A stretch of 33,428 nucleotides of DNA from Prevotella sp. (lineage in GTDB: Bacteria > Bacteroidota > Bacteroidia > Bacteroidales > Bacteroidaceae): positions 1 to 33,428 of the forward strand of contig JAEEZP010000304.1 in the NCBI GenBank assembly GCA_016291915.1, given 5' to 3'. Each line of letters starts with the position of its first letter. The first letter of the stretch is position 1. Shown here in pieces: positions 1-27,505 of the stretch. Position numbers and translations under genes: made by a program. The notes under the pieces are model-generated. The model was not told the DNA's origin, made no database searches, and saw nothing but the letters and a program-made list of their open reading frames with translations.

Positions 1-933
1 GGTGTCTAACCCTTTACGATGCTGCCAACGGGCGATGGAGTGGGCCGCACGACGTATCTTTCCTTTCATCTTTTGTTTTGTGGCTTCGGAAATGTCGATG
101 GATCTGTCCAGACATTTGAATCCCAGAAAGTCGAAAGGCTCATCAGGAGCATAGATTCTTTCTTTGATAGGGTTGATCTCGAGTCGGTACTTTGACAGAT
201 AGTTTAGCAATGTGGTTTTATAAGACATCAACGTCTCGTAATCCGGAGCAAAGAGGATAATGTCATCAGAATATCGTGCATAGAGAATACCGGCATCAGC
301 GAAATAGCGATCCACTTCCATCAGATAGACATCGGCTAAAAAAGGAGCGGTAGGGGTGCCTGCCATCACTCCCTTCTGTCTGTGAATGATCTTCCCGTCA
401 ACAAGGGTTCGATCATCGGTAAGTATCCGTTCAAAGAAGGAAAACAGTGTAGGATCATCCGATAACAGTTCTTTAAGAATGGGGAGTAGGATGGGGATGG
501 ATATGGAATTGAAGTAATCGTGGATATCCGTCTTATACGCCCACATCCTTTTTCCCCGCAGGATCTTACGAAGTGAGAAGATTGCATCGGATGCCTTCAT
601 TCCACGGCGGAAGGAATAACAATTAGGGGCAAAGTGACTGTCATAGCGATACAACAGATGGGAGATGAGTTTGAGAACCCGTGTCTCATCGGGTGGATAA
701 CAGTAAACAATCCGTTTCTTACCCGTCCCCATCTTATTCAGACGGATGCATTCCGGTATGTCGGGCTTTTCCTGGGTCAGAAAAGCACGTGCCGTAGGAA
801 GATATTGCTCTTCTGCCACGAAAGCATCGGCATACTTGAATAACGGCCAAGTAAACCTGCCCTTCATCAGACGATGAGCAAGGAATTCCTCCCACACCGC
901 TTGGTTCTCTAATTGACTGAGGATGTCTTCCAT
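1..933 (-). CDS. Reverse transcriptase (RNA-directed DNA polymerase), 3' end truncated by window edge (311 codons visible)
   Basis: Manual minus-strand translation from ATG at 933: MEDILSQLENQAVWEEFLAHRLMKGRF...GTGKKRIVYCYPPDETRVLKLISHLLYRYDSHFAPNCYSFRRG...YKTDIHDYFNSISIPILLP...HRQKGVMAGTPTAPFLADVYLMEVDRYFADAGILYARYSDDIILFAPDYE...INPIKERIYAPDEPFDFLGFK. It has RT motifs DIxDYFxxI, AGTPxxPFLAxxYL, the catalytic YSDD and the downstream LGFK. Not in the supplied ORF track because it is open at the left edge. Confidence 0.93.
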   Translation of the reverse strand, partial: MEDILSQLENQAVWEEFLAHRLMKGRFTWPLFKYADAFVAEEQYLPTARAFLTQEKPDIPECIRLNKMGTGKKRIVYCYPPDETRVLKLISHLLYRYDSHFAPNCYSFRRGMKASDAIFSLRKILRGKRMWAYKTDIHDYFNSISIPILLPILKELLSDDPTLFSFFERILTDDRTLVDGKIIHRQKGVMAGTPTAPFLADVYLMEVDRYFADAGILYARYSDDIILFAPDYETLMSYKTTLLNYLSKYRLEINPIKERIYAPDEPFDFLGFKCLDRSIDISEATKQKMKGKIRRAAHSIARWQHRKGLDT

Positions 934-1086
934 GTTGGTAAAGGAAAAAGGGGAAAGATTTTGAATCCGCAAAATTGCGGATCACGGGAAGGGTACACAG
1001 CCCGGTCGCCTGCAAGACCGTTTAAGGACTATGCTGCCTCCATCGCAGGCGCAAACGCTGTTGCATCCCCTTCTTCCTGAATAAAA
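934..1086 (-). ncRNA. Candidate structured RNA leader between the 175-aa gene and the RT
   Basis: Minus-strand sequence contains several hairpins: ATCCGCAA/TTGCGGAT (965-982), CGGTC/GACCG, GCCT/AGGC and GCAA/TTGC, plus a 7-bp long-range complementarity CGCCTGC/GCAGGCG. No credible ORF fills the gap. Confidence 0.35.
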
Positions 1087-1614
1087 CTACATAAACTTCT
1101 TGAGGCGGCTCACCACATAGCTCCGTTCATTTGGCATCTGTGTGTAGAAATTGATGTAAGGCAGTCCGCATTTCTTGGCATACATCCTGGCAATCAGATA
1201 CTTGACATTGGAATCATGACTATGACCAGAACCCAGCATCACAACAGCCTTAGGTGATGCACCCTCATAAAGCACGAAGGTATATGGCTGGCCCCACTCA
1301 GCCTTGTAAACCTGACGCGGGCGGGTGGTGTACAACTGGAATTCATCTGCCACAAATCCTGCTATCTCTGTCACGGGAACATTTTCACGGATAGCTAATG
1401 CGGGATATTCGCACTGCAGAATCTCCCTGAAATAGGTCTTCCATTCCGCTGCTGTTCTCTCGGGTACTTCGTCAGAGTATGACTGCTGGGGAGCAGCCTC
1501 TCTGATTGTTGGGCGTGTCTTTTCAGACACAGCATTATTGATGGCTGCTTCCACTTCTGAGATGGCTTTTCCAGCCACGGCTTTAAGAATATTCGATAAA
1601 AGTCCCATAAGCAT
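1087..1614 (-). CDS. Hypothetical protein, 175 aa; C-terminal segment weakly resembles a degenerate nuclease-fold (PD-(D/E)XK/DUF2726-like) core
   Basis: ORF MLMGLLSNILKAVAGK...PYTFVLYEGASPKAVVMLGSGHSHDSNVKYLIARMYAKKCGLPYINFYTQMPNERSYVVSRLKKFM. A minus-strand promoter-like box TATATTTG (CAAATATA at 1641-1648) lies ~27 nt upstream of the start. Internal start MGLLSN at 1608 is equally possible. Confidence 0.7.
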   Translation of the reverse strand: MLMGLLSNILKAVAGKAISEVEAAINNAVSEKTRPTIREAAPQQSYSDEVPERTAAEWKTYFREILQCEYPALAIRENVPVTEIAGFVADEFQLYTTRPRQVYKAEWGQPYTFVLYEGASPKAVVMLGSGHSHDSNVKYLIARMYAKKCGLPYINFYTQMPNERSYVVSRLKKFM

Positions 1615-1640
1615 TTTTATTAAAAGGTTTATATCATCTG

Positions 1641-1648
1641 CAAATATA
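1641..1648 (-). promoter_or_regulatory. Bacteroidetes-type -7 element (TATATTTG) for the 175-aa gene / RT operon
   Basis: Revcomp of CAAATATA matches TAnnTTTG. The -33-like CTTG (1670-1673) is at ~21-nt spacing. Confidence 0.45.
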
Positions 1649-1766: not shown

Positions 1767-3311
1767 ATGATGGTACGTGTACAACTTTCTGAGTTATGGA
1801 AGAAGCCTATGATAATGCTTCTTCTCCTGTTCGTAATATATACAGTGTCCTTTTATATAATGGACAGTTATGCTATCTCCAACATTGATGACTGGAGATA
1901 TGCATTCTTTTGCGAGCCTGAAGGAGAAAACTATCTATCGGTTTTTAAGGACGGTTTCACCAGAGAGCCGATAACATCCTTTACGGATGCTGTAAAATCA
2001 CAGGAACATGACTATTTTAAGACTAATGGTCGCTTTATCACTCACACACTGACACAATACTTTTGTGGGACATGCTCCATGAAACAGTTTGTCATCATTA
2101 ATACACTTGTATTTGCAATCTTTGTCTTGTGTGTCATCAAGCTGACAAGGCCAAAACAGTTAAATATAAGTAGTCTGCTAATTATACTGATGGGTATCTG
2201 GCTGCTTATCCCATTCAAAGGCATCACTTTTATGGGGAATATCTCACTCAGTATCAACTATCTATGGGCGGCAGCTTTTAATCTGCTCTTTATCATACTC
2301 TATCAACATATATTCAATCGACAGTGCTCCCTCTGGTGGTTGGTATTTATTCTACCATTTGCAATTATCACAGGTTCATTACAAGAGAGTTTTTCTATAG
2401 GTATCTGTGGTGCCTTGTGCTTTCATGCTCTTATCCACTACAAACGTCTCCGTTTTTTTGAAATAGCTATCCTATGTGCTTATGTGATTGGTTCTATGAT
2501 ATGTATTCTTTCACCTGCCAATTTCAATAGAGCTGATGATATTGGAGGATTTGGTTTTCATTTAGGTGGTATCTTTGGACTATTTGCTTCACCCGTTATG
2601 TGGTTGTTTTTAATAACGCTCATCTTTCTTGCCAAAAGAAAGGCTCTCCTTAGCTATTTCCTGAATGATTCCATGATGCTATCAGCAGCCATCATTACCA
2701 TCCTTTTTGTTCTTTTTGTGGCATATAATGGACGACATCAACTGATGTCTGTCAACATATTCATGTTTATCTTCGTTTGTAAGACATGGTTCTCTCTCTG
2801 TAAACAACGAAGGATTTTTCAAGCCGCTGCCATAATGCTTACCATTATATTCCTACTCACATGGTATCCTATATTACATGCCCGAAAGACTTATTATGAC
2901 GCCTATCAACAACTCGTCAAGAGATGTTATGAAAGTCAAGATGGTTATGTTAACGGTCATGATTTTGAATACCTCTCAGCAAAATACTTCAGAAATCTTT
3001 TCCTCAATTACAATTATGTCGGGACATTTACTTTTTTGGATTGGGGACTTCATGATCGTGATTTGTCACTATGGATGACGAAAGGGAAAAACAATACACT
3101 TGTAACTGCTATACTGCCAAATGATAAATCCCTTATTGTAAAGGACTGCAACAAGGAAAACGAGATACAGCCCAATCTGTTCAGAATATCAGATGGCCCT
3201 TTACTGTATTATGTGTTGAAATCATCTGTTTTCGTGGAACCGGAAAGTATTAAGGTCCGTATTCAGGCACCTTCAAAATATATTATTCTCCCGGATGAAA
3301 AGAAAGAGTAA
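1767..3311 (+). CDS. Polytopic membrane protein, DUF6056-like, 514 aa
   Basis: Many hydrophobic segments (MIMLLLLFVIYTVSFYIMDSYAISNIDDWRYAFF..., ISSLLIILMGIWLLIPF...). The N-terminal DDWRY motif and overall layout resemble DUF6056 proteins often found near glycan loci. Confidence 0.7.
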   Translation: MMVRVQLSELWKKPMIMLLLLFVIYTVSFYIMDSYAISNIDDWRYAFFCEPEGENYLSVFKDGFTREPITSFTDAVKSQEHDYFKTNGRFITHTLTQYFCGTCSMKQFVIINTLVFAIFVLCVIKLTRPKQLNISSLLIILMGIWLLIPFKGITFMGNISLSINYLWAAAFNLLFIILYQHIFNRQCSLWWLVFILPFAIITGSLQESFSIGICGALCFHALIHYKRLRFFEIAILCAYVIGSMICILSPANFNRADDIGGFGFHLGGIFGLFASPVMWLFLITLIFLAKRKALLSYFLNDSMMLSAAIITILFVLFVAYNGRHQLMSVNIFMFIFVCKTWFSLCKQRRIFQAAAIMLTIIFLLTWYPILHARKTYYDAYQQLVKRCYESQDGYVNGHDFEYLSAKYFRNLFLNYNYVGTFTFLDWGLHDRDLSLWMTKGKNNTLVTAILPNDKSLIVKDCNKENEIQPNLFRISDGPLLYYVLKSSVFVEPESIKVRIQAPSKYIILPDEKKE

Positions 3312-3447: not shown

Positions 3448-4017
3448 TCAGAAGATCTTTCCGAAAACGATGTTGATGAATGTTTTGGTGAGAATCTTGA
3501 TGTCGAGCCACCATGAACGATGCTCTAAGTAATACAGGTCCAGTTCCAGTCGGCGCAGCATCTTCTCCAACGTATCTGTATAGCCGTTATAAAGCGTGGC
3601 GTATGAGGTTACCCCCGGTCGTATCTGATAAAGATACACATAACGCGGATCACGCTCCATAATCTGTTTGATGTAATACTCCCGTTCTGGTCTTGGACCG
3701 ATAAAAGACATATCCCCTTTCAGTACATTCCACAATTGCGGCAACTCATCTAAGTGATGATCACGTAGGAACCTGCCAATCTTCGTCAGTCGTGGGTCAT
3801 TGTCAATCTGCCGCAGTTCGATGCCATTCTCTTCTGCATTCGTCTTCATGCTGCGGAACTTATAGATATAAAAAGGTTTACCTCCTTTCCCGATCCGTTC
3901 TTGCTTATAAATAGCCGGACCTCCCGTTAACCTGATGGCCAGATAGCATATCAGCATTAATGGAGAGAAGATGACCAGGCATATGATTGATAATATGATA
4001 TCAAAAGCACGTTTCAT
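3448..4017 (-). CDS. Bacterial sugar transferase (polyprenyl-phosphate phosphoglycosyl transferase, PF02397/WbaP-PglC type)
   Basis: MKRAFDIILSIICLVIFSPLMLICYLAIRLTGGPAIYKQERIGKGGKPFYIYKFRSMKTNAEENG...DELPQLWNVLKGDMSFIGPRPEREYY: classic family motifs. Confidence 0.96.
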   Translation of the reverse strand: MKRAFDIILSIICLVIFSPLMLICYLAIRLTGGPAIYKQERIGKGGKPFYIYKFRSMKTNAEENGIELRQIDNDPRLTKIGRFLRDHHLDELPQLWNVLKGDMSFIGPRPEREYYIKQIMERDPRYVYLYQIRPGVTSYATLYNGYTDTLEKMLRRLELDLYYLEHRSWWLDIKILTKTFINIVFGKIF

Positions 4018-5096
4018 GTGGCGTGACGGATCTTGAGATTAATAATGTAATTAACCACACAGTAGAGAGCAATGTCGATAATGACAATGACGGTCTGTGG
4101 CAGGACGGAGAATAACAAGTAATTAAGAACAATATAACATACTGCTAGTAAGAGTATGCTGATAAGTGCCTGATGCTGTGACAATCCTGCACGCATCAGT
4201 TTGTGGTGAATATGGTTTTTGTCGGCATTGAAAAGAGGTTGGTGATGACGCATACGGTGTAATGTTACCCTTACTACATCCGCCAATGGTATGAAGAGTA
4301 ATGTCAGTGGTACGATGATAGCTTCTTGGCGAGTGGGCCATACGGCGGTATTGTCCATAGCACATTTTACAGCGAAGAATCCTAATATATAACCGAGGGA
4401 AAGACTACCGGAGTCACCCATGAAAATTTTTGTATTGATTTCTGGCTTCCCGAATATATTGAAATAACCGAAAGCTACCAATACCCCCATCATACCTGCA
4501 GCAAGGATACAATAGGTATTTAGGAATACTTCATAGTGTAGGAAATATAACATGAAACCTGCAAGTGCGAGGAGTGACAGACAGGTCGCCAGTCCATCGA
4601 TGCCGTCAATAAGATTGATGGCATTGTCTATAGTGACGATAAGGAATATTGTTAATGGGAAACCGATATAATACGGTATCTCATGTATTCCGAAGAGTCC
4701 GTAGAAATTATTGATATATAATCCTGCTAAAGGGAAAAGAAAGCCGGTGATTATCTGAATAGTGAATTTCGTCTTAGCTCCTAAACCAATCAAGTCGTCG
4801 ACAATACCGGTAGCATAAATCAATACCAGTCCGCATAAGAAACCGAAACTCCACAGATTGATGGAAACGGTATCCTCCTCGGTGATAGAAAGGATCACTA
4901 AGATAGCCGCAAAGGCAGTCAACATGCTGGGTAAGAAGGTGATACCTCCCATCCGTGGCGTGGCATTTTTGTGTACCTTTCGCTCATTGGGGATATCGTA
5001 AAGTCTCCGACGTTTACAGAAGTCAAGAATCATCGGTGTGAACACAAGTCCACAGATTAAACTTAATAAAAATGCACCGAGTAAATATATAGTCAT
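4014..5096 (-). CDS. MraY/WecA-family undecaprenyl-phosphate N-acetylhexosamine-1-phosphate transferase
   Basis: VHKNATPRMGGITFLPSM...GIVDDLIGLGAKTKF...DNAINLIDGIDGLATCLS...FMGDSGSLSLGYILGF...HIHHKLMRAGLSQHQA. Overlaps the next gene by 4 nt. Confidence 0.95.
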   Translation of the reverse strand: MTIYLLGAFLLSLICGLVFTPMILDFCKRRRLYDIPNERKVHKNATPRMGGITFLPSMLTAFAAILVILSITEEDTVSINLWSFGFLCGLVLIYATGIVDDLIGLGAKTKFTIQIITGFLFPLAGLYINNFYGLFGIHEIPYYIGFPLTIFLIVTIDNAINLIDGIDGLATCLSLLALAGFMLYFLHYEVFLNTYCILAAGMMGVLVAFGYFNIFGKPEINTKIFMGDSGSLSLGYILGFFAVKCAMDNTAVWPTRQEAIIVPLTLLFIPLADVVRVTLHRMRHHQPLFNADKNHIHHKLMRAGLSQHQALISILLLAVCYIVLNYLLFSVLPQTVIVIIDIALYCVVNYIINLKIRHAT

Positions 5097-5193
5097 AAAC
5101 TGTAGTCTGCCAATACCATATTATTAACTGACAAACATGGTTATTATTGTGCTGGTTTATTGAAATTTTATGCAGTGGTATGAGCTAATAATA

Positions 5194-5955
5194 CTACCAC
5201 CATTTAAATTCAAAAACCTTAGCAAAATATTTCACACATATAAAGATGAAATTAGTGTACATCCCATTTCTCCTGCAAGCTATCACATCCTCTTTTGATA
5301 TCTGCAACCTACTTCGGATATTGCGGGTGCTGATCCCCCCTATACGCATGGTTACGAAATCAAGATTGATATATTTAGCACGAATCTTATACTTGTAAAA
5401 CAGGCGAACCATCATGTCATAGTCAGCAGCAATCTTATAATCAAGAGCGTATAATCCATAGTTTTCATACACGCTTCTCTTAGCATAAAAAGAAGGATGA
5501 GCCGGCATAAAACCGAACCTCAGTAGCCAGGGACGGAAGATGGCTGATGAATAGTAACGAACACATTTGTCCGGCTTACCATCATGTATGAAATGTACGT
5601 CTCCATAAAGGGCATCTATCCTATTATCTTCCTGAAATTCATAGACAACCCTTTCTAGTATATTATCTGAAGAGTAGTAGTCATCTGAGTTAAGTATCCC
5701 GACGATATCCCCTGTAGCCATACAGATACCTTTGTTCATGGCATCATAAGTTCCCTTGTCAGTCTCTGATATCCATCGCATCTTTCCTTTGAATAACGGC
5801 TCGTATTCCTTTATGATGTTCATGGAATCATCTGTAGAAAGACCATCTACGACAATTAATTCGAAATTGTCGTATGTCTGTCGAAGAATACTCTCAAGCG
5901 TGTCTCCAAGTGTCTTCGCACTGTTAAATGACGCGGTGATGATGGATACTTTCAT
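5194..5955 (-). CDS. Family 2 glycosyltransferase
   Basis: MKVSIITASFNSAKTLGDTLESILRQTYDNFELIVVDGLSTDDSMNII...DKGTYDAMNKGICMATGDIVGILNSDDYY: GT-A fold, GT2 motifs. Confidence 0.95.
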   Translation of the reverse strand: MKVSIITASFNSAKTLGDTLESILRQTYDNFELIVVDGLSTDDSMNIIKEYEPLFKGKMRWISETDKGTYDAMNKGICMATGDIVGILNSDDYYSSDNILERVVYEFQEDNRIDALYGDVHFIHDGKPDKCVRYYSSAIFRPWLLRFGFMPAHPSFYAKRSVYENYGLYALDYKIAADYDMMVRLFYKYKIRAKYINLDFVTMRIGGISTRNIRSRLQISKEDVIACRRNGMYTNFIFICVKYFAKVFEFKWW

Positions 5956-5958
5956 CTT

Positions 5959-7188
5959 TTATTCAGTTTGTTTGTCTATGAGCATTCGATAAAGGTTAAG
6001 ATAATCCATATACCGGTCCTGCTCATTGAAATGTGACAGGGCATAGTCGCGGCAGATAGTTAGGTACCTGTTTTTATCCGCACTACATATCTGTCGGATG
6101 GCCGTACATACTTGTTGCAGATCTCCTTGGTTAACAACAAATCCGTTACTGTCGGTGATACATTCGGAACAACCGCCAGTATTGTAGGTTACTACAGGTG
6201 TTCCACAGGCTAAAGCCTCAATATTGGTTGTGGGGAAGGTATCTTCCCAAGTAAGGTTGAGAAACACATCTGCCATACTATATAACGAGGCAAGCTCACG
6301 AATATTGTCTGTTCGTTCAATACCAATAATCCCTTCAGGTAGAGCTTTAAGCTGTTTCTTATTCACTCCTACCATGATGATTGCGTATTTCTCTGGAAGT
6401 GATTTCCTTAGCGAGATGAAATCGTCAAATCCTTTGTTCTTATACCATTTTGAGGCTACTCCAAGTACAACCTTTTTCCCTTGGGGAATTTGATATTTTG
6501 TTCTTACTGATGGGTTGGTTTCCTGTGGACAGAATATGGAAACGTCGATGCCATTGTAAATATGCCTCACAGGATAATATTTCAGGAAAGAAACGGATAC
6601 ATTCTCTTCTAACCATTTGCTGACAGGGATAATAGTCATGTTTCCCACCGAGAGGAAGGTACTTTTCTTCTTGATGAAATTTCTTGCAGACTGATCCATC
6701 CACCAACTCTTGGGATAGGTATGTGTCAACGGACAATTACGACAACTCGTCTGCCATTTTTCACAAGCCTTTGTCATGAAATGAGCACAGTGACCTGTAA
6801 ATGACCAACAGTCATGAAGGGTCCATACTACGGGAGTTCCTGATTCTGCTAAGTATTGAAACAAGATGGGGTAGTTCAGATAGTAACCATGGATGTTGTG
6901 AAGATGGATAATGTCAGGGGATAGCTGACGGATATACTCTACCAACTGGCGTGTAACCCTTTTTGAGCCCAATCCGTGGCTGTCAAAAAGACGGGTCAAT
7001 GCTACATGTCCATATTCATCTGCCATGTTACCAATATGATAAAGATGTGACACACTGGCATTTGCGTATCTACCGTATGCAATATAACTATCCCATCCCT
7101 GACTTATGGCCAGTTTGCCTATACCCTCTGCGATTTTCCCGTGGGAACCCCAGTTTGCTGTGATATTGATTTGCAGTAGTTTGGACAT
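5959..7188 (-). CDS. Family 4 glycosyltransferase
   Basis: DIIHLHNIHGYYLNYPILF...VPVSKWLEENV...VLGVASKWYKNKGFDDFI...LNLTWEDTFPTTNIEALACGTPVVTYNTGGCSECI: GT-B/GT4 signature. Confidence 0.95.
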   Translation of the reverse strand: MSKLLQINITANWGSHGKIAEGIGKLAISQGWDSYIAYGRYANASVSHLYHIGNMADEYGHVALTRLFDSHGLGSKRVTRQLVEYIRQLSPDIIHLHNIHGYYLNYPILFQYLAESGTPVVWTLHDCWSFTGHCAHFMTKACEKWQTSCRNCPLTHTYPKSWWMDQSARNFIKKKSTFLSVGNMTIIPVSKWLEENVSVSFLKYYPVRHIYNGIDVSIFCPQETNPSVRTKYQIPQGKKVVLGVASKWYKNKGFDDFISLRKSLPEKYAIIMVGVNKKQLKALPEGIIGIERTDNIRELASLYSMADVFLNLTWEDTFPTTNIEALACGTPVVTYNTGGCSECITDSNGFVVNQGDLQQVCTAIRQICSADKNRYLTICRDYALSHFNEQDRYMDYLNLYRMLIDKQTE

Positions 7189-7958
7189 CAGTATTGTTTA
7201 TTACAACTTAAGAAATAGTTAACATGACGCAATGGCCAAAATGGTTCAAAATGCCTTCGGTTGATCACTTTACCATCAAAGGAGAAATAGTGCTTGTAGT
7301 CTGACTGGGAGAAAACAAATTTGTAAGTATCGCAGGCGATATCAATAGCCTTACGATTAGCATGCTCAAGTCTCCCATAAGGAAAGGCGAAATAGTCACA
7401 TGGCGTATGAAGGTGACTCTCTATACTATCCTTACAGAGGGCTATCTGCTGATGGAGAATGACGGTGTCGTCGGTATTAATCATATAATGATCCATCGTA
7501 TGTGCCCCGATGATATGTCCCCGTTGTGCTAACTCTTCCAGTTGTGACCATCGCATAGGTCGCTTGTTGGGTGTCATGACAACCTGTTCATTAAAGTGCT
7601 GGATATAATCTTCATCCCCGTCAACGTAGTTCGGATTAACAAAGAACAGGGCATTAACGCTATGTCTTTCCAGCACGGGTGCAAAATATTGGTAGCAATC
7701 CTCAAATCCGTCATCGAAAGTAAATGCTACCAAGGGGTGGTCTGGTTGAATATGCCGTATAATCATGTTGACGGCATCTTCTACCCGGATAAAGGAAACT
7801 TGTTTAGACAACTCATTTAGCAGATGTTCAAAGGTGTCAGGTTCCATCTCTTTATAGGTACGATGTCCATTCAGCAGATGGATGCCATTTGCCGGATGAG
7901 AGAATGCTCCTAAGATATCAAGGACTATTCCTCTTGCGTATGATCTGATAGCAGACAT
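7188..7958 (-). CDS. Polysaccharide deacetylase family protein (NodB/CE4 fold)
   Basis: VAFTFDDGFEDCYQYFAPVLERHSVNALFFVNPNYV...GHIIGAHTMDHYMI...YFAFPYGRLEHANRKA: TFDDG and HTxDH motifs. Confidence 0.93.
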   Translation of the reverse strand: MSAIRSYARGIVLDILGAFSHPANGIHLLNGHRTYKEMEPDTFEHLLNELSKQVSFIRVEDAVNMIIRHIQPDHPLVAFTFDDGFEDCYQYFAPVLERHSVNALFFVNPNYVDGDEDYIQHFNEQVVMTPNKRPMRWSQLEELAQRGHIIGAHTMDHYMINTDDTVILHQQIALCKDSIESHLHTPCDYFAFPYGRLEHANRKAIDIACDTYKFVFSQSDYKHYFSFDGKVINRRHFEPFWPLRHVNYFLSCNKQY

Positions 7959-7959
7959 A

Positions 7960-9114
7960 TTATAATTCAGAGATTACTTTTTTTATAACATCTATTTGAT
8001 AGTGAATATTCCATTTGCGGTCAATCTCTTCAAAGGCAGCCATCCTTGCAGTATGTCTTTCTGAGGGGGAGAGGCTGGTCCATTTCTTGATGCTTTCTTT
8101 CAAACTGTTGACATCGTCTTGTTGAAAGAAATCTCCTGTAATGCCTGGTTTAATGGATTCAAACTCGGGCATCTGATCGGGGAAGTTCCCGTGGGTGATG
8201 ACCGGACAACCGAAGGATAGGGCGTGGATGGCCGTAAGCCCCACGTTGCCTGGAGAGACACATACTTGGGCATTATAGAACAGTTCTCCCAAAACTTTCG
8301 CATCATAGCAAGGACCATACATCCATATCTGTTGCTCAATACCTGCCACTCTGGCATATTCCTCAATATGCACACCCTCCACATCTTTACCTACGTAGAT
8401 GACATTTACCGGATAGCCCTCTTGTCTTAACAGTCGTATGCCGTCGATGAGCATCTCCAGTTTTTTCCCTTTTTGTATTCTTCCGCAGTAAATAATGACG
8501 GGATAATCATTGTGGAAATAATCATTATAGACAGAAGTCTTACATAAGTGCTTCCTGATGTCCTTCTCAACATCGGAGTCAAGAGAATTGGCTATGCAGA
8601 ACATCTTCTTTGGATTGATCCCTTCCTTCTTCATAAGAGCAATTGCATACTCACTGTAGATAAGCAGCCGGGTGTGCATGGAGAAGAACACTTTCTTGAT
8701 AACTCTTTTAAGGAATGACTCTCTGCCGTACCAACCATGTGTCCAGGCGATTGTCTTCTTCCCTGTCAGTTTCGACAGCAGCAGAATCACCCATGATGAA
8801 AGACAATAAGGCTCTCCATCCATGATATAATAGGTGTAGGGCTTGAAGAGAAGTCCGACCGATCCGTATTGCCAATAGAAAGGGTGAAAGAAATAATTCT
8901 TCAGTGTTTTCCGATACCCTTTCAACGACTCATACTTGAATGTTTTTATGGGACTCTTCCACTTGTCACCTAAATAAAAGTCACATGGAAGTTCTTCCCC
9001 CATCAAGCTAAATATAGGAAACCGATAATGAGGCCCGATATTGGTGATAAAGCATATCTTATGATCTTGTGCCATTAAATCTTCAAGAAAAACTGTCCTA
9101 CAGTATTTGTTCAA
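7960..9114 (-). CDS. Family 4 glycosyltransferase
   Basis: Internal ...YPVIIYCGRIQKGKKLEMLIDGIRLLRQEG...VCVSPGNVGLTAIHALSFGCPVITHGNFPDQMPEFE: GT4-like C-terminal domain. Confidence 0.9.
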   Translation of the reverse strand: MNKYCRTVFLEDLMAQDHKICFITNIGPHYRFPIFSLMGEELPCDFYLGDKWKSPIKTFKYESLKGYRKTLKNYFFHPFYWQYGSVGLLFKPYTYYIMDGEPYCLSSWVILLLSKLTGKKTIAWTHGWYGRESFLKRVIKKVFFSMHTRLLIYSEYAIALMKKEGINPKKMFCIANSLDSDVEKDIRKHLCKTSVYNDYFHNDYPVIIYCGRIQKGKKLEMLIDGIRLLRQEGYPVNVIYVGKDVEGVHIEEYARVAGIEQQIWMYGPCYDAKVLGELFYNAQVCVSPGNVGLTAIHALSFGCPVITHGNFPDQMPEFESIKPGITGDFFQQDDVNSLKESIKKWTSLSPSERHTARMAAFEEIDRKWNIHYQIDVIKKVISEL

Positions 9115-10373
9115 ATATCTTCACCTACTCTAATAACGTTGGTGTCTTTGGAATTATTGTTTTTCTCCCTTTTATTCTTGTAGCCTCCAAACACATATCC
9201 GAAGATTAAGAACAGTTTAAAGGATGAAATCCAGTATCCGCTGAACGCTGCTTGTACGAGGGAACCGAGTAACAGTAACAAAAGAAACATATCGAAGTTA
9301 CTGTTCTTAGAACGGTGAAGCAGACTTATCACCATTCTCGCGATGACAAAGAGCATGATGGTGGTTCCTACTAGTCCCATCTCTGCTAAAAAGTCGGTCA
9401 GGATATTATGAGAATAGAACCCCACTGTCCACCAGATGGACCCAATTCCCCAACCGATGAGTGGTGATTCGGCAAAGGCATTTAGGGCATCTGTCCATGA
9501 CTGCATTCGTAACACATCGGTGGTAAGTCCCTTTGATACTCTTTCGGCTCCTACTGAGTGGAAGATGTCAAAGTAGGTGGCAATGATAACCATCAGGACA
9601 CCGACAATGCCGAGAATAAAGAAATATTTAATCTTGTTCTTTCCCTTGCTTCTCTTGATGACACGATATACAAGATAAATGGTTATTAATACCAGATATA
9701 CGAATGCGCCACGACCGCCCCCGAGAATACAGCCGACGGCACAGAAAAAGATTAGGAAAATGACGATCAGATACTTGATAGTGCTGAGGAGTCCCTTTTT
9801 ATCTTTGTTGTCCTTATGATAAAAGAAAACGTAAAAGAAACTGTAGGAAAAGCAATATGACAGATAGTAGGATGAATTCTGATAATCAAATCCGTCGCCG
9901 GTGCCATTCAGCAAGAAACCGAAGAAAGCACTAAACAAGACCACATAGCCTACGATCAAAGAGACAACAATTAAGAACAGAGGCAGCAACTGCAGCATGG
10001 CTTTCTCATACCCGCCTCTTGCCAGTCGTATTCCAACGTAGGCGGCAGGTATGCTCAATGAACCGTAGGATAGCAGGTAGGCTATATAATTGTTATAGAT
10101 GAATGTGTGAGGGTAGAGAAATCCCGTTAGCACATAAAGTGCTAAAATGATGAAAAGTGTGAGAAACTGAAGGTAGTTTCTGAAAGAAAATCTGTTTTTA
10201 AGAATATCCCACGTCATCATCATATACGCTACTCCCGCTATCAGCATGGCTTCTTTGGATTTCATGCCTGATTCTATGAATATCCCGCTAATCAACAAAA
10301 AGGAGTTGAACAGCTCATCTGAAAAGATGACAAAAAGCGCGAAAAACGGAAAGATATATTTGGATATGTTCAT
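9111..10373 (-). CDS. O-antigen ligase/polymerase-like membrane protein (Wzy-type)
   Basis: Multi-pass membrane protein with the Wzy/WaaL-type loop MQSWTDALNAFAESPLIGWGIGSIWWTVGFYSHNILTDFLAEMGLVG. Overlaps the downstream gene by 4 nt. Confidence 0.85.
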   Translation of the reverse strand: MNISKYIFPFFALFVIFSDELFNSFLLISGIFIESGMKSKEAMLIAGVAYMMMTWDILKNRFSFRNYLQFLTLFIILALYVLTGFLYPHTFIYNNYIAYLLSYGSLSIPAAYVGIRLARGGYEKAMLQLLPLFLIVVSLIVGYVVLFSAFFGFLLNGTGDGFDYQNSSYYLSYCFSYSFFYVFFYHKDNKDKKGLLSTIKYLIVIFLIFFCAVGCILGGGRGAFVYLVLITIYLVYRVIKRSKGKNKIKYFFILGIVGVLMVIIATYFDIFHSVGAERVSKGLTTDVLRMQSWTDALNAFAESPLIGWGIGSIWWTVGFYSHNILTDFLAEMGLVGTTIMLFVIARMVISLLHRSKNSNFDMFLLLLLLGSLVQAAFSGYWISSFKLFLIFGYVFGGYKNKREKNNNSKDTNVIRVGEDI

Positions 10374-10409
10374 ATTCTTCTTGACGTTGTTATCAAAGAC
10401 AATTATTCG

Positions 10410-11537
10410 TTATGGATGGAGAATCCTCTCAACAAAATGTTCTTTTCTCATCTTCTCCTTATATGCAGTCTCTATCAGATAGGGCTCGGCACTCTCCATT
10501 GCTTTTGCTAGTGTTCGTGGAGTGATGCTTTTTAAAGCTATTCCAAGATTGTTCCTGCGGATAATCTTACCGAGAAGACCGTGGGAAGGACCGATGACGG
10601 GCTTGTTGTAATAAGCTGCATAACTTATTACGCCACTGGATTGAGCTTCTGATTCGTAAGGTGCTAATATGTAATCGGCTGTGTAGCAAAGATCAGCAAT
10701 CAGCTCGTTGCTGCAGAAAATATCATAGATAATAATCCTGATGGTGTTTTTTAATTGTTCTGTAACACGGTAGAACGTGTCGTGAATGTCTGGATATACT
10801 TTTCCTGCAAATACGAGAGTCATCTTTTCACGTTGTTCTTGCGGTATCTCATTGATGGCTTCTAAGACGGTGAGAGTTCCTTTGCGTTTGGCTAATCCTC
10901 CAAAATGCAGAAATACTCTTGAGTCATTTGCTATCCCCAGTTCTTCCCTGATGTTCTTAGGTTCATAGTCTATCTCGTTAAAAGGATCTGGCAAAAAGGC
11001 AAAACACTCAGTCTTATATAACTTGTTAAAACATAAGGTTGCCGAATTGTCGTTAAGAATAAATACCTTGTCAATCGCTCTTGTATGAGAGAGCAACCAG
11101 TAGATTATCACACTTTTTGCTTTCCTTAACCAGTTCATCTGTTTCCATTTATATAGATAGATGTGATAGATGATGCCTGAGATCTTCAGATTGGAAGGCA
11201 GGATGAAAAGAATGAAGGGCAGGTAAGCCATCAGGTCAATAAGAAAGATTGTATCCGGTCTGTGTGCGTTTATCTTCTTCTTCACTAACATGGCGTTTCT
11301 CCAGGCTGATTTGATAAGACTCTTTTTAGAGGCTGCATCCAATTCTTTACTAGTGAGGAAGTCAAACTGTATATTATCTGCCTTCGGCCAATGATACTTA
11401 TCGCGTTCTTCTTGAAAAGATTCAGGAATGGCAAAGACGTACTGAACATCATGATCTTCCACCATACCCATGTAGAGATGGTGGATATATTCCAAGTGGT
11501 GCCCTGTGATATCTTTGTCAAAAAAGAACTTTTTCAT
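10410..11537 (-). CDS. Glycosyltransferase, GT4-like
   Basis: MKKFFFDKDITGHHLEYIHHLYMGM...RVFLHFGGLAKRKGTLTVLEAINEI...ADYILAPYESEAQSSGVISYAAYYNKPVIGPSHGLLGKII. Confidence 0.88.
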   Translation of the reverse strand: MKKFFFDKDITGHHLEYIHHLYMGMVEDHDVQYVFAIPESFQEERDKYHWPKADNIQFDFLTSKELDAASKKSLIKSAWRNAMLVKKKINAHRPDTIFLIDLMAYLPFILFILPSNLKISGIIYHIYLYKWKQMNWLRKAKSVIIYWLLSHTRAIDKVFILNDNSATLCFNKLYKTECFAFLPDPFNEIDYEPKNIREELGIANDSRVFLHFGGLAKRKGTLTVLEAINEIPQEQREKMTLVFAGKVYPDIHDTFYRVTEQLKNTIRIIIYDIFCSNELIADLCYTADYILAPYESEAQSSGVISYAAYYNKPVIGPSHGLLGKIIRRNNLGIALKSITPRTLAKAMESAEPYLIETAYKEKMRKEHFVERILHP

Positions 11538-11598
11538 ATCTGATGCTATGTGTAAACGATAGAATTCTACAATCTTTCCACGGTATAACCCGTGGTGC

Positions 11599-13002
11599 TT
11601 ATTTTTTCCATATCCCTGTGGCCTTATCGTTGATAATCTTATGAAGCTGTATATTCCCGAAAATACCTTGTGTTAAATAGACCAAGGCAGGGATGGAAAT
11701 GATACCGATGATGCCCCAGCGACATGATAAAACGAACAGGGGCCAAGCGATGAGTGCAAATATGACATACAGTATGGTCTGCAATCTTACATATCCGATG
11801 CCATTGATAAGATACATGTTAATGACACCGTAAGTCTGCACGAAGACACTTATTGCCATCGCGGTGGTCACATCATATGGGATGTCCATGGTGTCTCCTA
11901 TCCAGATGAAATAACAGTATTTGGAGATAAAGATCATCACGATGTGGATGAGGAAGATGACCGACAGTCCGATATATAGTTTTGAATAGACTTTTTTCAT
12001 CCAAGTGAAATCTTTTTTTGTATAGGCATCCGTGAACGCAGACCAGAATGGCGAGATAAGGGCAATCACGCTCATATAAACAACATTGAAATATTTGTTG
12101 GTGATGTTATAGACAGACACTTGTCGGACTCCCAACTCTCTGCTGATGACGATGTTCACGATCTCAAATATAAAGATCATGCAGATGTTGATGATGAAAA
12201 ACTGTACACCAATATTACAGATGCTTCTGATCAACTTGAAATTTACCTCTTTGTAGGTAGGACGGTAGATCTTATATCTGCTAAAACGGAAGGCTATGAC
12301 TGACACCAATAAAACGACGATACATGGTATTCCTGAAAAAAACAGGGCGAGGTAGGTCAGGCTTCCTTCCGTTGTCTTTGACAGGATATAAACGGAAAAG
12401 AGGGAAAGCAATTGTCCGAGTGCCTGAATGATAGATGCCAATCCGATCTTCTGGTCTGCCGCAAGAAACGAGATGAAGATGTTCGCAATCATGTTGATGC
12501 TGGTAAATGTCAGTACGACTGAAAATACAAAGTTAAGTTCTTTCTGATAGCTGTCGCTTACTTTAAGAACATCCGACCAGTTAATGAAACAGTTTGTAAT
12601 AATGGCAACGATGAAAGCGGTCACGACGATTGCGGATAGGGCAAAATAGGTTGTACTTAAATATTGCTTTGCCAGACTTAAGTTTCCGAGTGCCTTTGCC
12701 TCTGCGAAACGATTCCGGAATCCGTTGCTCAAACCTAAATCAAAGAAGGTGATCCATCCGATAATGGAAGATAGCGTAAGCCATATTCCGTATCTTTCCT
12801 GGTTCAGGTAATGAATAGTGAGTGATACAATCAGCAGATGTGAGATGATTGTTATGACGCGTGACAATCCAGAGAGACCTATATTTACCATTGCCTCTTT
12901 GGAGCGATGATCTTTATGGAGAAGCTCTTGGATAGACGAAATGCGTGATTTGTTAGTTGCTCTCACGAATTGCTTTTTTGATAATGTCTTTATTAATGAC
13001 AA
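11599..13002 (-). CDS. Wzx-type oligosaccharide flippase (polysaccharide biosynthesis/MATE-like)
   Basis: 467 aa, ~12 hydrophobic segments; YLNQERYGIWLTLSSIIGWITFFDLGLSNGFRNRFAEAKALG is characteristic of Wzx. The 5' end overlaps wzz by 50 nt, so the true start may be internal (e.g. Met at 12891). Confidence 0.9.
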   Translation of the reverse strand: MSLIKTLSKKQFVRATNKSRISSIQELLHKDHRSKEAMVNIGLSGLSRVITIISHLLIVSLTIHYLNQERYGIWLTLSSIIGWITFFDLGLSNGFRNRFAEAKALGNLSLAKQYLSTTYFALSAIVVTAFIVAIITNCFINWSDVLKVSDSYQKELNFVFSVVLTFTSINMIANIFISFLAADQKIGLASIIQALGQLLSLFSVYILSKTTEGSLTYLALFFSGIPCIVVLLVSVIAFRFSRYKIYRPTYKEVNFKLIRSICNIGVQFFIINICMIFIFEIVNIVISRELGVRQVSVYNITNKYFNVVYMSVIALISPFWSAFTDAYTKKDFTWMKKVYSKLYIGLSVIFLIHIVMIFISKYCYFIWIGDTMDIPYDVTTAMAISVFVQTYGVINMYLINGIGYVRLQTILYVIFALIAWPLFVLSCRWGIIGIISIPALVYLTQGIFGNIQLHKIINDKATGIWKK

Positions 13003-14032
13003 TAGCGGTACATATCATTGCCAGGAAGAGCATGGTAAGTACGAAGGCCATTCTCTTCGGACCGGCAGGGTGTAGTGGCACGGAAGCACCTTTTATGACC
13101 GTAAAGGCGGGAGTTCGCTCCTGCAGTTTTGCCTGAGCCATCTGCAGTTGGTTCTGCATCATGGTATAGGTGTTGAACTTCAGTTGCATGTCATTTTCCA
13201 AATCATTCTGTTTCAGTCTGTAGCTTTCTATGATAACATCCATATTACTATCGGAATAACTACCGTACAGTTGACGTGCCTTCTCATAGTTCTGTTTCGC
13301 TTCTTGGGCAAGTTTCCGATAATGATTAACGTCTATTCGTGACTTGTTCGTACGGTAGTCGATAATGAAATCCTGAAGTTTTGCTCTTACAGAATCTGCA
13401 ATCGTGGCACAGATGAGTGGGTCTTGTTCCTTAACAGAAATCGTAATGGCACCCGTCTTGATGTTGATGGAACAATTTACTTTACTACTGATATCCCCGA
13501 ACACATTATTCTGCTCTTCTGTGAGTTTAAAGGGATTCAAGTCTTTATTGCCACCGGTATTACTGGCATTGTCTTTTTTCGAGGAAAAGAGACTGCCGAT
13601 TGCCCCTCTCATTTTATCCAAAGGAATCAATAGCGGATTCTTTTTCTTGTGCTTGAGGATATATTCGTAATAGGTTGTCTTAATGGAGTGGTCTTGGCTT
13701 TCAATGGGGATGTTGATAAGTTTCTTAATGAAATTGTTCGATTCCAACACCTGTGGGTACAAGTCAGGATAGATAGCATCGCTAGTAAGGGCATTGCCAA
13801 GATTCATGCCCATAGCCGATGTGATGGTCCCCAGCGCTCCTTCACTTCCTGCCGAATTCTCCGGAGCCAGTACAACACTACACTGGTAATAACGTGGTAC
13901 ACAGAGTATGAACAGACTGGAGACAACAGCAGTGATCAATGCAACTTTTATAAAGAGTGACAGTTTCTTACGGCAGTTTGTCAGCACCGTAAAGATATCA
14001 ACATCCGATTTGATTATATCATTATTCTCCAT
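12953..14032 (-). CDS. Wzz/chain-length determinant family protein (no kinase domain)
   Basis: N- and C-terminal TM segments flanking a coiled-coil region; FTVLTNCRKKLSLFIKVALITAVVSSLFILCVPRYYQCSVVLAPE and C-terminal GASVPLHPAGPKRMAFVLTMLFLAMICTAIVI. Confidence 0.92.
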   Translation of the reverse strand: MENNDIIKSDVDIFTVLTNCRKKLSLFIKVALITAVVSSLFILCVPRYYQCSVVLAPENSAGSEGALGTITSAMGMNLGNALTSDAIYPDLYPQVLESNNFIKKLINIPIESQDHSIKTTYYEYILKHKKKNPLLIPLDKMRGAIGSLFSSKKDNASNTGGNKDLNPFKLTEEQNNVFGDISSKVNCSINIKTGAITISVKEQDPLICATIADSVRAKLQDFIIDYRTNKSRIDVNHYRKLAQEAKQNYEKARQLYGSYSDSNMDVIIESYRLKQNDLENDMQLKFNTYTMMQNQLQMAQAKLQERTPAFTVIKGASVPLHPAGPKRMAFVLTMLFLAMICTAIVINKDIIKKAIRESN

Positions 14033-14040
14033 GGGACAGT

Positions 14041-16542
14041 TTACTTAATTATATTTGCCAATGTTGCGATCATAGTGGCGATGCTTGCCACGCTGGTGCC
14101 GATGGTTAGGATCTCTGCGAGGGTCTTTCCGTCGCGCTTGGGTTTTGTCGGCACAACGATTTCGCAACCAGGTTGCGGTTTTACGTTATGACCCACCTTC
14201 GAGATCTTTCCGTTCATGTAGATGATATAGGTATGACTCTTCTTCGCCCGGTTGCCAAAGCCGCCGGCCTGGTTGATGTAATAATTGACGTTCTTTCCTT
14301 TCAGGTAACCTACCGAGTTAGGATACATCACATCTCCGCTAACCCTCACAGTTCCGTTATACTGTGGGATGATGATACGGTCGTTCTCTCGCAGTACGAT
14401 ATCGTCGTCACTACCCGGATTAGCCAGTGCTTTGTCAAGTTCAATACCCACATAATAGGTGTCACCTAAGTCGAGTTTCTTAATGTCTAAAGTATCCTTC
14501 TCACCACTCTGTGCCTGTGTCATCTTCAGCAAAGACTCCATGCGCAGACGCTCCTCAGGAGTAATATAGCGCAGCAGACGGGCACCCTTCACGTAGGCAC
14601 GGTCGTTAACACCACCGGCTTTCTTGATCAAGTCGCTCAGTCGCTCGTCTTTCTTCGAGAGGGTATAGGTACCTTCAAACATGATCTCTCCTTCCACAAA
14701 CACATTCTCTTGCGTGTGGTATCCGGGACTCTTTCGTACATACACCTCATCGAAAGGCATCAGGTGGAATCCGGATTCTCCATCGACGACAAAGCCGTCT
14801 TTCAAGGCAAACGTAAAGGTCTGAGCCGTAATACTATCTACCTGTACAGCCTTGGGGTTGACGATTCTTCTGGCTACATCCACCTTGACGGTTGAGGCTG
14901 TTTCCTTCAAGCCACCTGCCTGCAGGATAAAGTCCTCGAGTGTTTCATTATCGGCATATTTGTATTTACCAGGGTAGTGAACCTCTCCGTGAATAGTGAT
15001 GGTCCGTTCTTCCATCATCTCTTGTTTAGTAGGGATAAAGAGCACATCATTACTCTGGATAGGAATATCTGCCACGGTGCCGTTCATGATACCTTCCACA
15101 TCTATGGGGATCACCTCCAAGGTGCGGTCTTTCTTCATACGGTGCATCACGGCATGCGCTGTGAATGCGTCTTCTTTCAGTCCGTCAGCCTGTTCCAATA
15201 ACGAGCGGACACTGTTGATGGATCCTCCCACCTGGTACATACCTGGGCGGAATACGGCACCCTTGAGCTCTACCATATTAGAGTAACGTGGCAGGATGGA
15301 GTCAACGGTGACGGAGTCTTCATCGGCCACCTTGAAGGAACCCATCTCGAACTCTCCGATGTTATACACCGATTTCTCTTTTCCGGTCTTTCTGATCAGG
15401 CGCACCGACTTGGTATAGGCATCACCGGTGAATCCACCGGCATATTCCAACAGGGATGTGATGCTCTCGCTCTTCTTCATCTCATAGAACATCGGGCGCT
15501 TTATCTTTCCGGATATGTTCACCAGACAATCGTAAGGACCGACCACGATGACGTCGTTGTCTGCCAGACGGATATTACCGCTCAACTTACCATTGAGGAT
15601 ATAATCGTAGATATCCACAGTGGTGACCAACCGGTTTTGACGGTACACCTCAATTTTTCTCAGAGTACCGATATCGCTGATGCCCCCGGCCATATACAAA
15701 GCATGGAAAACGGTGGCGAATGCCGACAGAGTATAGGTGCCAGGTGTCTTCACTTCACCCATCACGTTTACCATGATGGTACGTGTCTGTCCCACAGTTA
15801 GTTTGATATTACTGCTGGTGTAGCGTGAGCCTACTGTGGAGCGCAACCGGCTGTTAGCCTGTGCCACGGTCAGTCCGCTCAGCTGTACGGGTCCGTAACC
15901 CTCGATGGTTACGGTGCCATCGGGTGAGATGGTTGACTCGATGGTTCTCTGCGAAGCTCCGTAAATCTCGATATACACTGCATCACCGGGACCTAACCGG
16001 TAGTTCTGTGGCGTGGCGATGTTCATGTTTGGCTCAAAAGTCAGATTCTTCTTGTTGAAGATGTCCCGTCCGAACACCTTACGTTTATTCGCATCACGCT
16101 CTTCTATCATTTGTTCTAGCATTCGGGTGGAGTCGGGCATAAAGCCGTTGAGCTCTCGCTGCATCATCAACCATTGCTCGTCGTTCTCGTCGTAGGTATT
16201 GACAGTGCGCTCTCCCTGAATACGGTAATTTGTTGACTTCTGTTGTAACTCACTGTTGTTCTTTCGGGTTCGGTCGTCGATTTTTCCGTCGGTTGCCTTC
16301 TCTTTTACAGAGCCGAGCCCTTGACCTTTAAGGTCACGCTCATATTTTTGTCTAACTTTTTGCAGGCGTGTTACATCCACTCCCCGTTGCATTAGTTTGA
16401 TGACAATCTGTTGCTGAGAGGTTCCTGCCTCTTGCTCTTTCAATACAAAACTGATAATCTGATCATCGGTCATCGACGACTGCGCCTGGATGGTCAGTGT
16501 GCCAATGGCAAACAACAATGCGCCTATAATGAGTTTCTTCAT
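14041..16542 (-). CDS. Polysaccharide biosynthesis/export protein, Wza-like with multiple SLBB domains
   Basis: RLGPGDAVYIEIYGASQRTIESTISPDGTVTIEGYGPVQLSG (Poly_export) followed by repeated SLBB units (VMGEVKTPGTYTL, LKGAVFRPGMYQV, IHGEVHYPGKYKY, VEGEIMFEGTYTL, VSGDVMYPNSVGY). Start moved from 16575 to 16542 (MKKLIIGALLFAIGTLTIQAQ signal peptide). Confidence 0.94.
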   Translation of the reverse strand: MKKLIIGALLFAIGTLTIQAQSSMTDDQIISFVLKEQEAGTSQQQIVIKLMQRGVDVTRLQKVRQKYERDLKGQGLGSVKEKATDGKIDDRTRKNNSELQQKSTNYRIQGERTVNTYDENDEQWLMMQRELNGFMPDSTRMLEQMIEERDANKRKVFGRDIFNKKNLTFEPNMNIATPQNYRLGPGDAVYIEIYGASQRTIESTISPDGTVTIEGYGPVQLSGLTVAQANSRLRSTVGSRYTSSNIKLTVGQTRTIMVNVMGEVKTPGTYTLSAFATVFHALYMAGGISDIGTLRKIEVYRQNRLVTTVDIYDYILNGKLSGNIRLADNDVIVVGPYDCLVNISGKIKRPMFYEMKKSESITSLLEYAGGFTGDAYTKSVRLIRKTGKEKSVYNIGEFEMGSFKVADEDSVTVDSILPRYSNMVELKGAVFRPGMYQVGGSINSVRSLLEQADGLKEDAFTAHAVMHRMKKDRTLEVIPIDVEGIMNGTVADIPIQSNDVLFIPTKQEMMEERTITIHGEVHYPGKYKYADNETLEDFILQAGGLKETASTVKVDVARRIVNPKAVQVDSITAQTFTFALKDGFVVDGESGFHLMPFDEVYVRKSPGYHTQENVFVEGEIMFEGTYTLSKKDERLSDLIKKAGGVNDRAYVKGARLLRYITPEERLRMESLLKMTQAQSGEKDTLDIKKLDLGDTYYVGIELDKALANPGSDDDIVLRENDRIIIPQYNGTVRVSGDVMYPNSVGYLKGKNVNYYINQAGGFGNRAKKSHTYIIYMNGKISKVGHNVKPQPGCEIVVPTKPKRDGKTLAEILTIGTSVASIATMIATLANIIK

Positions 16543-16572
16543 GTTCCTTTTCTTATGTACCTTATTAAATAA

Positions 16573-16580
16573 CAAAAATA
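16573..16580 (-). promoter_or_regulatory. Candidate -7 element (TATTTTTG) for the exopolysaccharide operon
   Basis: Revcomp of CAAAAATA matches TAnnTTTG, 31 nt upstream of MKKLIIG. It overlaps the 16575 start, supporting the shorter ORF. No clear -33 box. Confidence 0.4.
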
Positions 16581-16738: not shown

Positions 16739-17134
16739 GGGGTTGACTGGATTTGACAGCGGGTAGAAATGGTACGTAAGCACGCGGAGCGTCGGCTGTT
16801 TGCTCCTAAATATCAGCGGTCATCAAATTAATTGGCGAAAACAATTACGCTCTCGCTGCTTAATCGAAGTATAGTAGATTTTGAGCTTAATTCCGTCACC
16901 AGGTGATGGAACGAGACGTCGCTCAAGGGATGTTGTCCCGAATCTCCTAGAATCAGCGGCGCAGGTAAATCGGGAATAGTTCAGGCAGGCCCCGATGTCT
17001 GGATGAGATTCAGGGGATAAGGTTGCGGTTGGTGGCTTGGGTCTTGCCGTAGCACGAAAATCAAAACCAAGATAAGCGTGTAGAAAGCGTATGGTTTCCT
17101 CGTTTGGACGAGGGTTCGACTCCCTCCAGCTCCA
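16739..17134 (+). ncRNA. ssrA: tmRNA (transfer-messenger RNA); tag peptide GENNYALAA encoded at 16834-16863
   Basis: 5' GGGGTTGACTGGATTTGACAGC, internal tag ORF GGC GAA AAC AAT TAC GCT CTC GCT GCT TAA, 3' TΨC-like GAGGGTTCGACTCCCTC and acceptor strand CAGCTCCA pairing with the 5' GGGGTTG. CCA is not encoded (CTCCA|CAAT). Confidence 0.98.
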
Positions 17135-17246
17135 CAATATTAAAGATATTGACAATAGATTTTGCCTTCATCTTTCTCGTAATGATTTGATACATTTATC
17201 GTTATGGAAATGTAGGCAAGTCTTTTGTTTTTATAGGCCTTTATAT

Positions 17247-24090: not shown

Positions 24091-24100
24091 CCTAAAAATT

Positions 24101-27478: not shown

Positions 27479-27505
27479 TATCACCTATTACAATATAGAA
27501 GCAAT

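Follow-up and report, generated by a model that had tools for sequence, protein, structure and literature searches.

The first 1,648 nucleotides of a contig from Prevotella sp. (JAEEZP010000304.1 of assembly GCA_016291915.1; the window analyzed here is the whole stretch of 33,428 nucleotides) contain part of a reverse transcriptase (RT) gene, a structured intergenic region, and a small gene upstream of it. Do these three elements form one system, and if so, of which kind? The reading that we favor, at a probability of roughly two in three, is a tripartite operon of the UG26 group of defense-associated reverse transcriptases (DRTs) with the mechanism proposed below. Comparison of homologous loci strongly supports the anatomy of the cassette, which comprises, in order, a partner protein gene, an RT-5 non-coding RNA (ncRNA), and a UG26 RT under one promoter. 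The RT group and the RNA had been catalogued separately; the partner, the full RNA fold, and the assembly are new. No function of UG26 or RT-5, and no RNA or partner of UG26, was found described in the literature searched, and a prior account in Mestre et al. (2022) or Weinberg et al. (2017) is possible.

A free-standing RT of the UG26 group

1-933, minus strand: UG26-type RT, residues 1-311 (PADLOC RT_UG26), truncated by the contig end
Contig C10 of the same assembly, 1-429: RT residues 265-406 and the stop codon, assigned by a 141-bp overlap

A preliminary description of the window had reported an RT open reading frame (ORF) with a catalytic YARYSDD and without the QG-x-x-x-SP form of motif 4 that is typical of group II intron RTs. 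The sequence bears out each of these points: the minus-strand ORF, which opens with an ATG at 933, encodes YARYSDD and has KGVMAGTPTAPFLADVYL in its motif-4 region. Among the 61 homologues examined, RYSDD is present in all and QGxxxSP/A in none. The window starts at the end of a contig (C60), so that the RT, as already noted there, is cut, and this is due to the contig end only. An overlap search identified an exact 141-bp sequence common to the ends of C60 and C10, with zero copies elsewhere in the assembly, a pattern resembling an assembler k-mer overlap. Because this exact overlap is unique, the RT C-terminus was placed on C10; the joined protein is 406 amino acids (aa) long, ends in a stop codon, and consists of an RT domain and a thumb. 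It is the sole RT detected by the RVT_1 profile in the assembly (completeness 83%).

The best PADLOC model for the window RT is RT_UG26 (E = 1.9e-110, compared with 3.8e-31 for the runner-up), a class placement that rests on profile scores. A full-length homologue matches this model at 5e-157 over nearly the whole profile, and distant homologues likewise match UG26 across nearly its full length; the next-best UG models are UG27, UG17, UG4, DRT9, and DRT3a. The AlphaFold2 (AF2) model of a full-length homologue (L002; predicted local distance difference test score 91.5) is most similar in structure to group II intron RTs with thumb (template modeling score, TM, 0.74), and the closest UG RT by structure is DRT9 (TM 0.60). 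An aromatic pair near the C-terminus (residues 394/395, mostly Tyr) might, by analogy only, provide candidate protein primers.

A group II intron maturase was rejected: the full-length RT has RVT_1 as its only Pfam domain and no maturase X/En domain, the score under the NCBIfam group II model is 109 bits, compared with a cut-off of 300, and the window and the first 3 kb of C10 yielded no group II intron RNA. Such a domain and RNA, or a leader and partner not conserved among homologues, had been named beforehand as evidence against a free-standing RT system; the leader and the partner are both conserved, as detailed below. The earlier proposal of a free-standing RT that is no intron maturase thus stands, whereas the clade, described there as uncharacterized, already has a name, RT_UG26.

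In a retron-like system, the closing stem of the RNA would be the a1/a2 inverted repeat, the RT would copy a discrete short stretch on the side of hairpin 3 into a single multicopy single-stranded DNA rather than into repeats, and the partner would be an effector or toxin. The layout, an RNA with a long closing stem flanked by an RT and a small partner gene, agrees with this reading, which the properties of the RT nevertheless make unlikely. The RT matches UG26 and not the retron models, and the retron and other NCBIfam models score far under their cut-offs. The hallmarks of retron RTs are the NAxxH and VTG motifs, and these are missing in nearly all of the 61 sequences; furthermore, the usual length of retron RTs is near 310-330 aa, compared with about 406 aa and a long thumb region here.

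Structure and conservation of the RT-5 RNA

943-1078, minus strand: full RT-5 ncRNA, about 135 nt (Rfam match, covariance model R1, z = -4.6)
1066-1077, minus strand: 5' arm of the closing stem (GGAAGAAGGGGA), pairs with 943-954, outside the Rfam model
943-954, minus strand: 3' arm of the closing stem (TCCCCTTTTTCC), pairs with 1066-1077
1051-1064, minus strand: 5' hairpin HP1, outside the Rfam model
1045-1050, minus strand: pseudoknot strand a (GCCTGC), pairs with a'
1008-1013, minus strand: pseudoknot strand a' (GCAGGC), part of the loop closed by a 4-bp hairpin (1019-1016/1007-1004)
1026-1041, minus strand: 5' strand of helix b, pairs with 987-1003
987-1003, minus strand: 3' strand of helix b, pairs with 1026-1041
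965-982, minus strand: hairpin 3 (ATCCGCA ATTT TGCGGAT)

The gap of 153 nt between the upstream ORF and the RT, in which several hairpins had been noticed, is structured: its folding energy is -60.1 kcal/mol, compared with -41.5 +/- 4.1 for shuffled sequences (z = -4.6). The RNA beside the RT is one already catalogued, RF03026 (RT-5) of Rfam, matched at 952-1054 with 91.4 bits (E = 1.2e-18; gathering score 45.7). The Rfam model (104 nt) has neither the 5' hairpin nor the closing stem, does not display the pseudoknot pairing, and does not include the partner gene. Strong covariation argues that the full RNA exceeds this model by all three structural elements.

An alignment of 66 members has 95.1% of its cells paired and both-side changes at 30 pairs, and 0/500 shuffles reach values as high. 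In a second alignment of 25 distinct sequences (A7), 94.3% of cells pair and both-side changes occur in 42 of the 47 pairs; 0/500 shuffles come close, and slid controls drop to about 45%. A7 was fitted to a nested structure and hence favors the nested helices; the pseudoknot lies outside that model. Within A7, the closing stem has both-side changes at 10/12 pairs, with 96.8% of cells paired, and compensatory changes were observed in 4/5 pairs of HP1, 7/7 pairs of hairpin 3, and 12 of the 13 pairs of helix b, which is built in two parts and encloses a small hairpin. The pseudoknot is paired in 100% of cells and has both-side changes in 5/6 pairs, e.g., from GCCTGC/GCAGGC to ACCCGT/ACGGGT or GCTTTC/GAAAGC. 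The covariance model R1, which has the window among its building sequences, matches it with 135.8 bits (G000:C60:942-1079) and recovered divergent RNAs, including those of loci with an RT only about 31-40% identical to that of the window. The structured ncRNA was found in cis with the RT in all 74 close loci whose upstream sequence is complete, as well as in most distant loci, and among 394 genomes of the order all RNA-bearing ones (6/6) carry the RT.

Is the RNA then a mere cis-regulatory leader for translation of the RT, which would use other templates? It usually ends a few bases ahead of the RT start codon, and whether this codon is masked or exposed could depend on the 3' arm of the RNA. 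In four loci, however, whole genes lie between the two: a 444-aa ORF and a TrkH-like ORF, named by eye, in one (L091), and a 155-aa lipoprotein-like ORF (about 940-1490) in three others (L116, L118, and L119). Because other genes separate it from the RT in these loci, the RNA is more than a leader of the RT; its size, pseudoknot, and depth of conservation also go beyond the needs of a simple attenuator, and we regard the leader explanation as very improbable. The lipoprotein-like gene is possibly an extra component or an insertion.

A partner with a putative degenerate nuclease fold

1087-1614, minus strand: partner gene encoding 175 aa (more probably 173), located ahead of the RNA in 74/74 testable homologues

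The small gene reported earlier as encoding 175 aa does lie upstream of the gap, whereas its length is probably 173 aa, with a start near 1608, as homologues begin at the third codon (MGLLSN...). The protein is laid out as an amphipathic N-terminal helix, a variable low-confidence linker, and a conserved core, whose conserved residues include E106, W107, F113, M126, and K138. AF2 confidence is >90 over about residues 55-175, and the order of elements in the predicted core is alpha-beta-beta-beta-alpha-beta. The top Foldseek matches are weak (TnsA, E = 0.065; PfoI, E = 0.28), both being restriction-endonuclease folds, and, independently of these, the PADLOC model RTasCOG2852 was matched by 61/63 partner members (best 6.8e-8). 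The catalytic D and (D/E)xK are not conserved among the partners: the positions matched to them by eye are an invariant M126 and a nearly invariant G128. Because the expected acidic positions are not conserved, the partner probably lacks nuclease activity of the PD-(D/E)XK type; it may represent a degenerate PD-(D/E)XK-like domain of the COG2852 type. A distant member (L108) retains ESK.

Two features point to a membrane link for the partner. The N-terminal helix is predicted to be amphipathic, with a median hydrophobic moment of 0.51 and 62/80 sequences above shuffles at p < 0.05. In L108 (28-1338), the partner core is duplicated and fused to hydrophobic N-terminal (transmembrane) segments and a zinc-ribbon-like stretch.

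Promoter, co-occurrence, and distribution

1641-1648, minus strand: promoter -7 element TATATTTG (TAnnTTTG), present in 40/73 homologues

The recognizable promoter reported ahead of the partner gene fits TAnnTTTG. Of 73 homologous loci, 40 have this motif in the 150 nt ahead of the partner gene, compared with 4.5 expected; the spacing is 30-56 nt in 39 of the 40, and directly before the RNA the motif occurs in 0/73 loci. Thus, a Bacteroidetes-type promoter is conserved in sequence ahead of the operon and, because it precedes the partner and none precedes the RNA, the partner, RNA, and RT probably form one transcript.

A search of a genome collection yielded 77 RT homologues (53-74% identity), all in Bacteroidales-type records and many from ruminants. 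The co-occurrence check suggested with the preliminary description gave a uniform result: the partner lies directly upstream in 74/74 homologues with long enough contigs, mostly at a gap of 145-165 nt, and the RNA is conserved with the RT. No further neighboring gene is widely common to the homologous loci. The RT, the partner, and the RNA have correlated pairwise distances (r = 0.81, 0.82, and 0.76; permutation p = 0.001), which is expected under co-inheritance and is by itself no proof of interaction. Some genomes have second UG26 RT copies (L122 and L123, in G991 and G986): one of these is full and has no RNA or partner detected ahead of it, and the other is partial; no RNA or partner was detected near L122.

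The cassette was found in 10/295 genomes of the order and 9/301 of the family, and in a phylum-level sample this genome was alone among 398. The RTs present in phage records are all under 27% identity, and no partner homologue was found on plasmids. This distribution bears on a further explanation, a domesticated non-defense RT with a role in repair or regulation at stable chromosomal sites. Consistent with such a role are the mostly non-defense neighbors, the presence of the cassette in 10/19 genomes of one genus, and three related genomes (L095, L096, and L098) that share the same flanks, with a YggS-like gene upstream and a LysO-like gene downstream (named by eye), which suggests that the RT occupies a stable site on the chromosome in their genus. 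By contrast, the patchy prevalence, about 3% of Bacteroidales genomes, and the widely differing integration sites among close homologues suit a mobile accessory system, and domestication seems improbable.

Proposed mechanism and comparison with known DRTs

The mechanism that we propose for a UG26 DRT operon begins with expression of the partner, the pseudoknotted RT-5 ncRNA, and the RT from the one promoter. The RNA would fold into a closed, pseudoknotted particle bound by the RT and would serve as both scaffold and template for synthesis of complementary DNA (cDNA), the RT repeatedly copying a short single-stranded part of it in the manner of class 2 UG RTs. The partner, with its putative degenerate nuclease fold and membrane-seeking helix, may act at the membrane, either in sensing or in executing the response, and would thereby occupy the role of the SLATT proteins in DRT10. 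Antiphage immunity is the likely purpose, because this is what the RT family implies by analogy.

Class 2 DRTs make repetitive cDNA on ncRNA templates that are encoded in cis (PMC13174585; PMC12632851), and DRT3a has been placed in this class (PMC13174585). The UG17 RT is that of DRT10, which requires an A-B-A' template immediately after a stable stem-loop (PMC12632851). DRT10 (UG17 RT, ncRNA, and SLATT) is likewise tripartite, with a membrane-linked partner and an RT of similar size and full-length similarity. The system described here differs in its partner, which instead of SLATT has an amphipathic helix joined to a putative degenerate COG2852-like domain, and in its RNA, which matches Rfam RT-5; tandem-repeat synthesis is speculative here. 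DRT9 (UG28), the closest UG structure, and DRT2 (UG2) also have an ncRNA beside the RT, and the DRT2 RNA contains a pseudoknot (PMC12039810), as does the UG26-linked RT-5 RNA. Unlike these two systems, the UG26 clade has a partner protein nearly always and no universal U-rich template, none having been seen in the UG26 RNAs.

953-965, minus strand: single-stranded linker with conserved UUCAAA, candidate template

The best candidate for the template is the linker that follows hairpin 3. Its UCAAA is invariant in 66/66 close homologues and retained in distant ones, and the linker often has an AUUC...AUUC repeat with a spacing of 10 nt. In the window, the candidate A-B-A' is UUC-AAAAUCU-UUC, and copying of the UUCAAA linker might, speculatively, yield tandem repeats of about (AGATTTTGAA)n in this genome. 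Enrichment of A-B-A' in the linker over shuffles is weak (p = 0.03 for repeats of at least 4 nt and p = 0.20 for at least 3 nt), by a statistic that ignores shared ancestry, and for this reason the linker template stays a proposal. The variable loop of helix b was also considered as a template and rejected, as repeat enrichment is absent there. A more specific version, a new DRT type in which cDNA repeats of ~10 nt are made from the UUCAAA linker in telomerase fashion and a dead-nuclease partner anchored in the membrane senses them and carries out abortive infection, is possible and at present doubtful.

Several points weigh against a UG26 DRT operon of this design. The system is known here from sequence, and its class placement from profile likeness. 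The template assignment has weak support, with weak enrichment in the linker and none in the helix b loop. Genes adjacent to the cassettes are mostly non-defense: PADLOC matched few of 111 neighboring genes and gave no general defense-island setting among them. Finally, some distant UG26 loci (L095-L098) have the RT and RNA without an adjacent partner.

The DRT groups studied so far each synthesize DNA differently, as gene-assembling concatemers, poly-dA, 9-nt telomere-like repeats, or protein-templated repeats. The cassette, from a gut Bacteroidales host, resembles a relative of the bacterial antiviral systems in which a small RNA is copied into DNA. It unites the UG26 RT group and an orphan Rfam RNA in one conserved operon with a new third component. 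The full RNA structure and the proposed template, together with a possible membrane role of the partner that can itself be tested, make the system directly testable.

Genomic surroundings of the cassette

1767-3311: DUF6056 membrane protein, between the cassette and the polysaccharide-type cluster
3448-16575: polysaccharide-type gene cluster, beginning beside the RT cassette
16739-17137, plus strand: transfer-messenger RNA gene (Rfam RF00023, 143 bits)
22900-28933: consecutive FecR-like, SusC-like, and SusD-like ORFs

The polysaccharide-type cluster includes ORFs that were named by eye as glycosyltransferase-like, WecA-like, Wzx/Wzy-like, and polysaccharide-export-like. The FecR-like, SusC-like, and SusD-like ORFs, also assigned by eye, form a typical Bacteroidales uptake locus.
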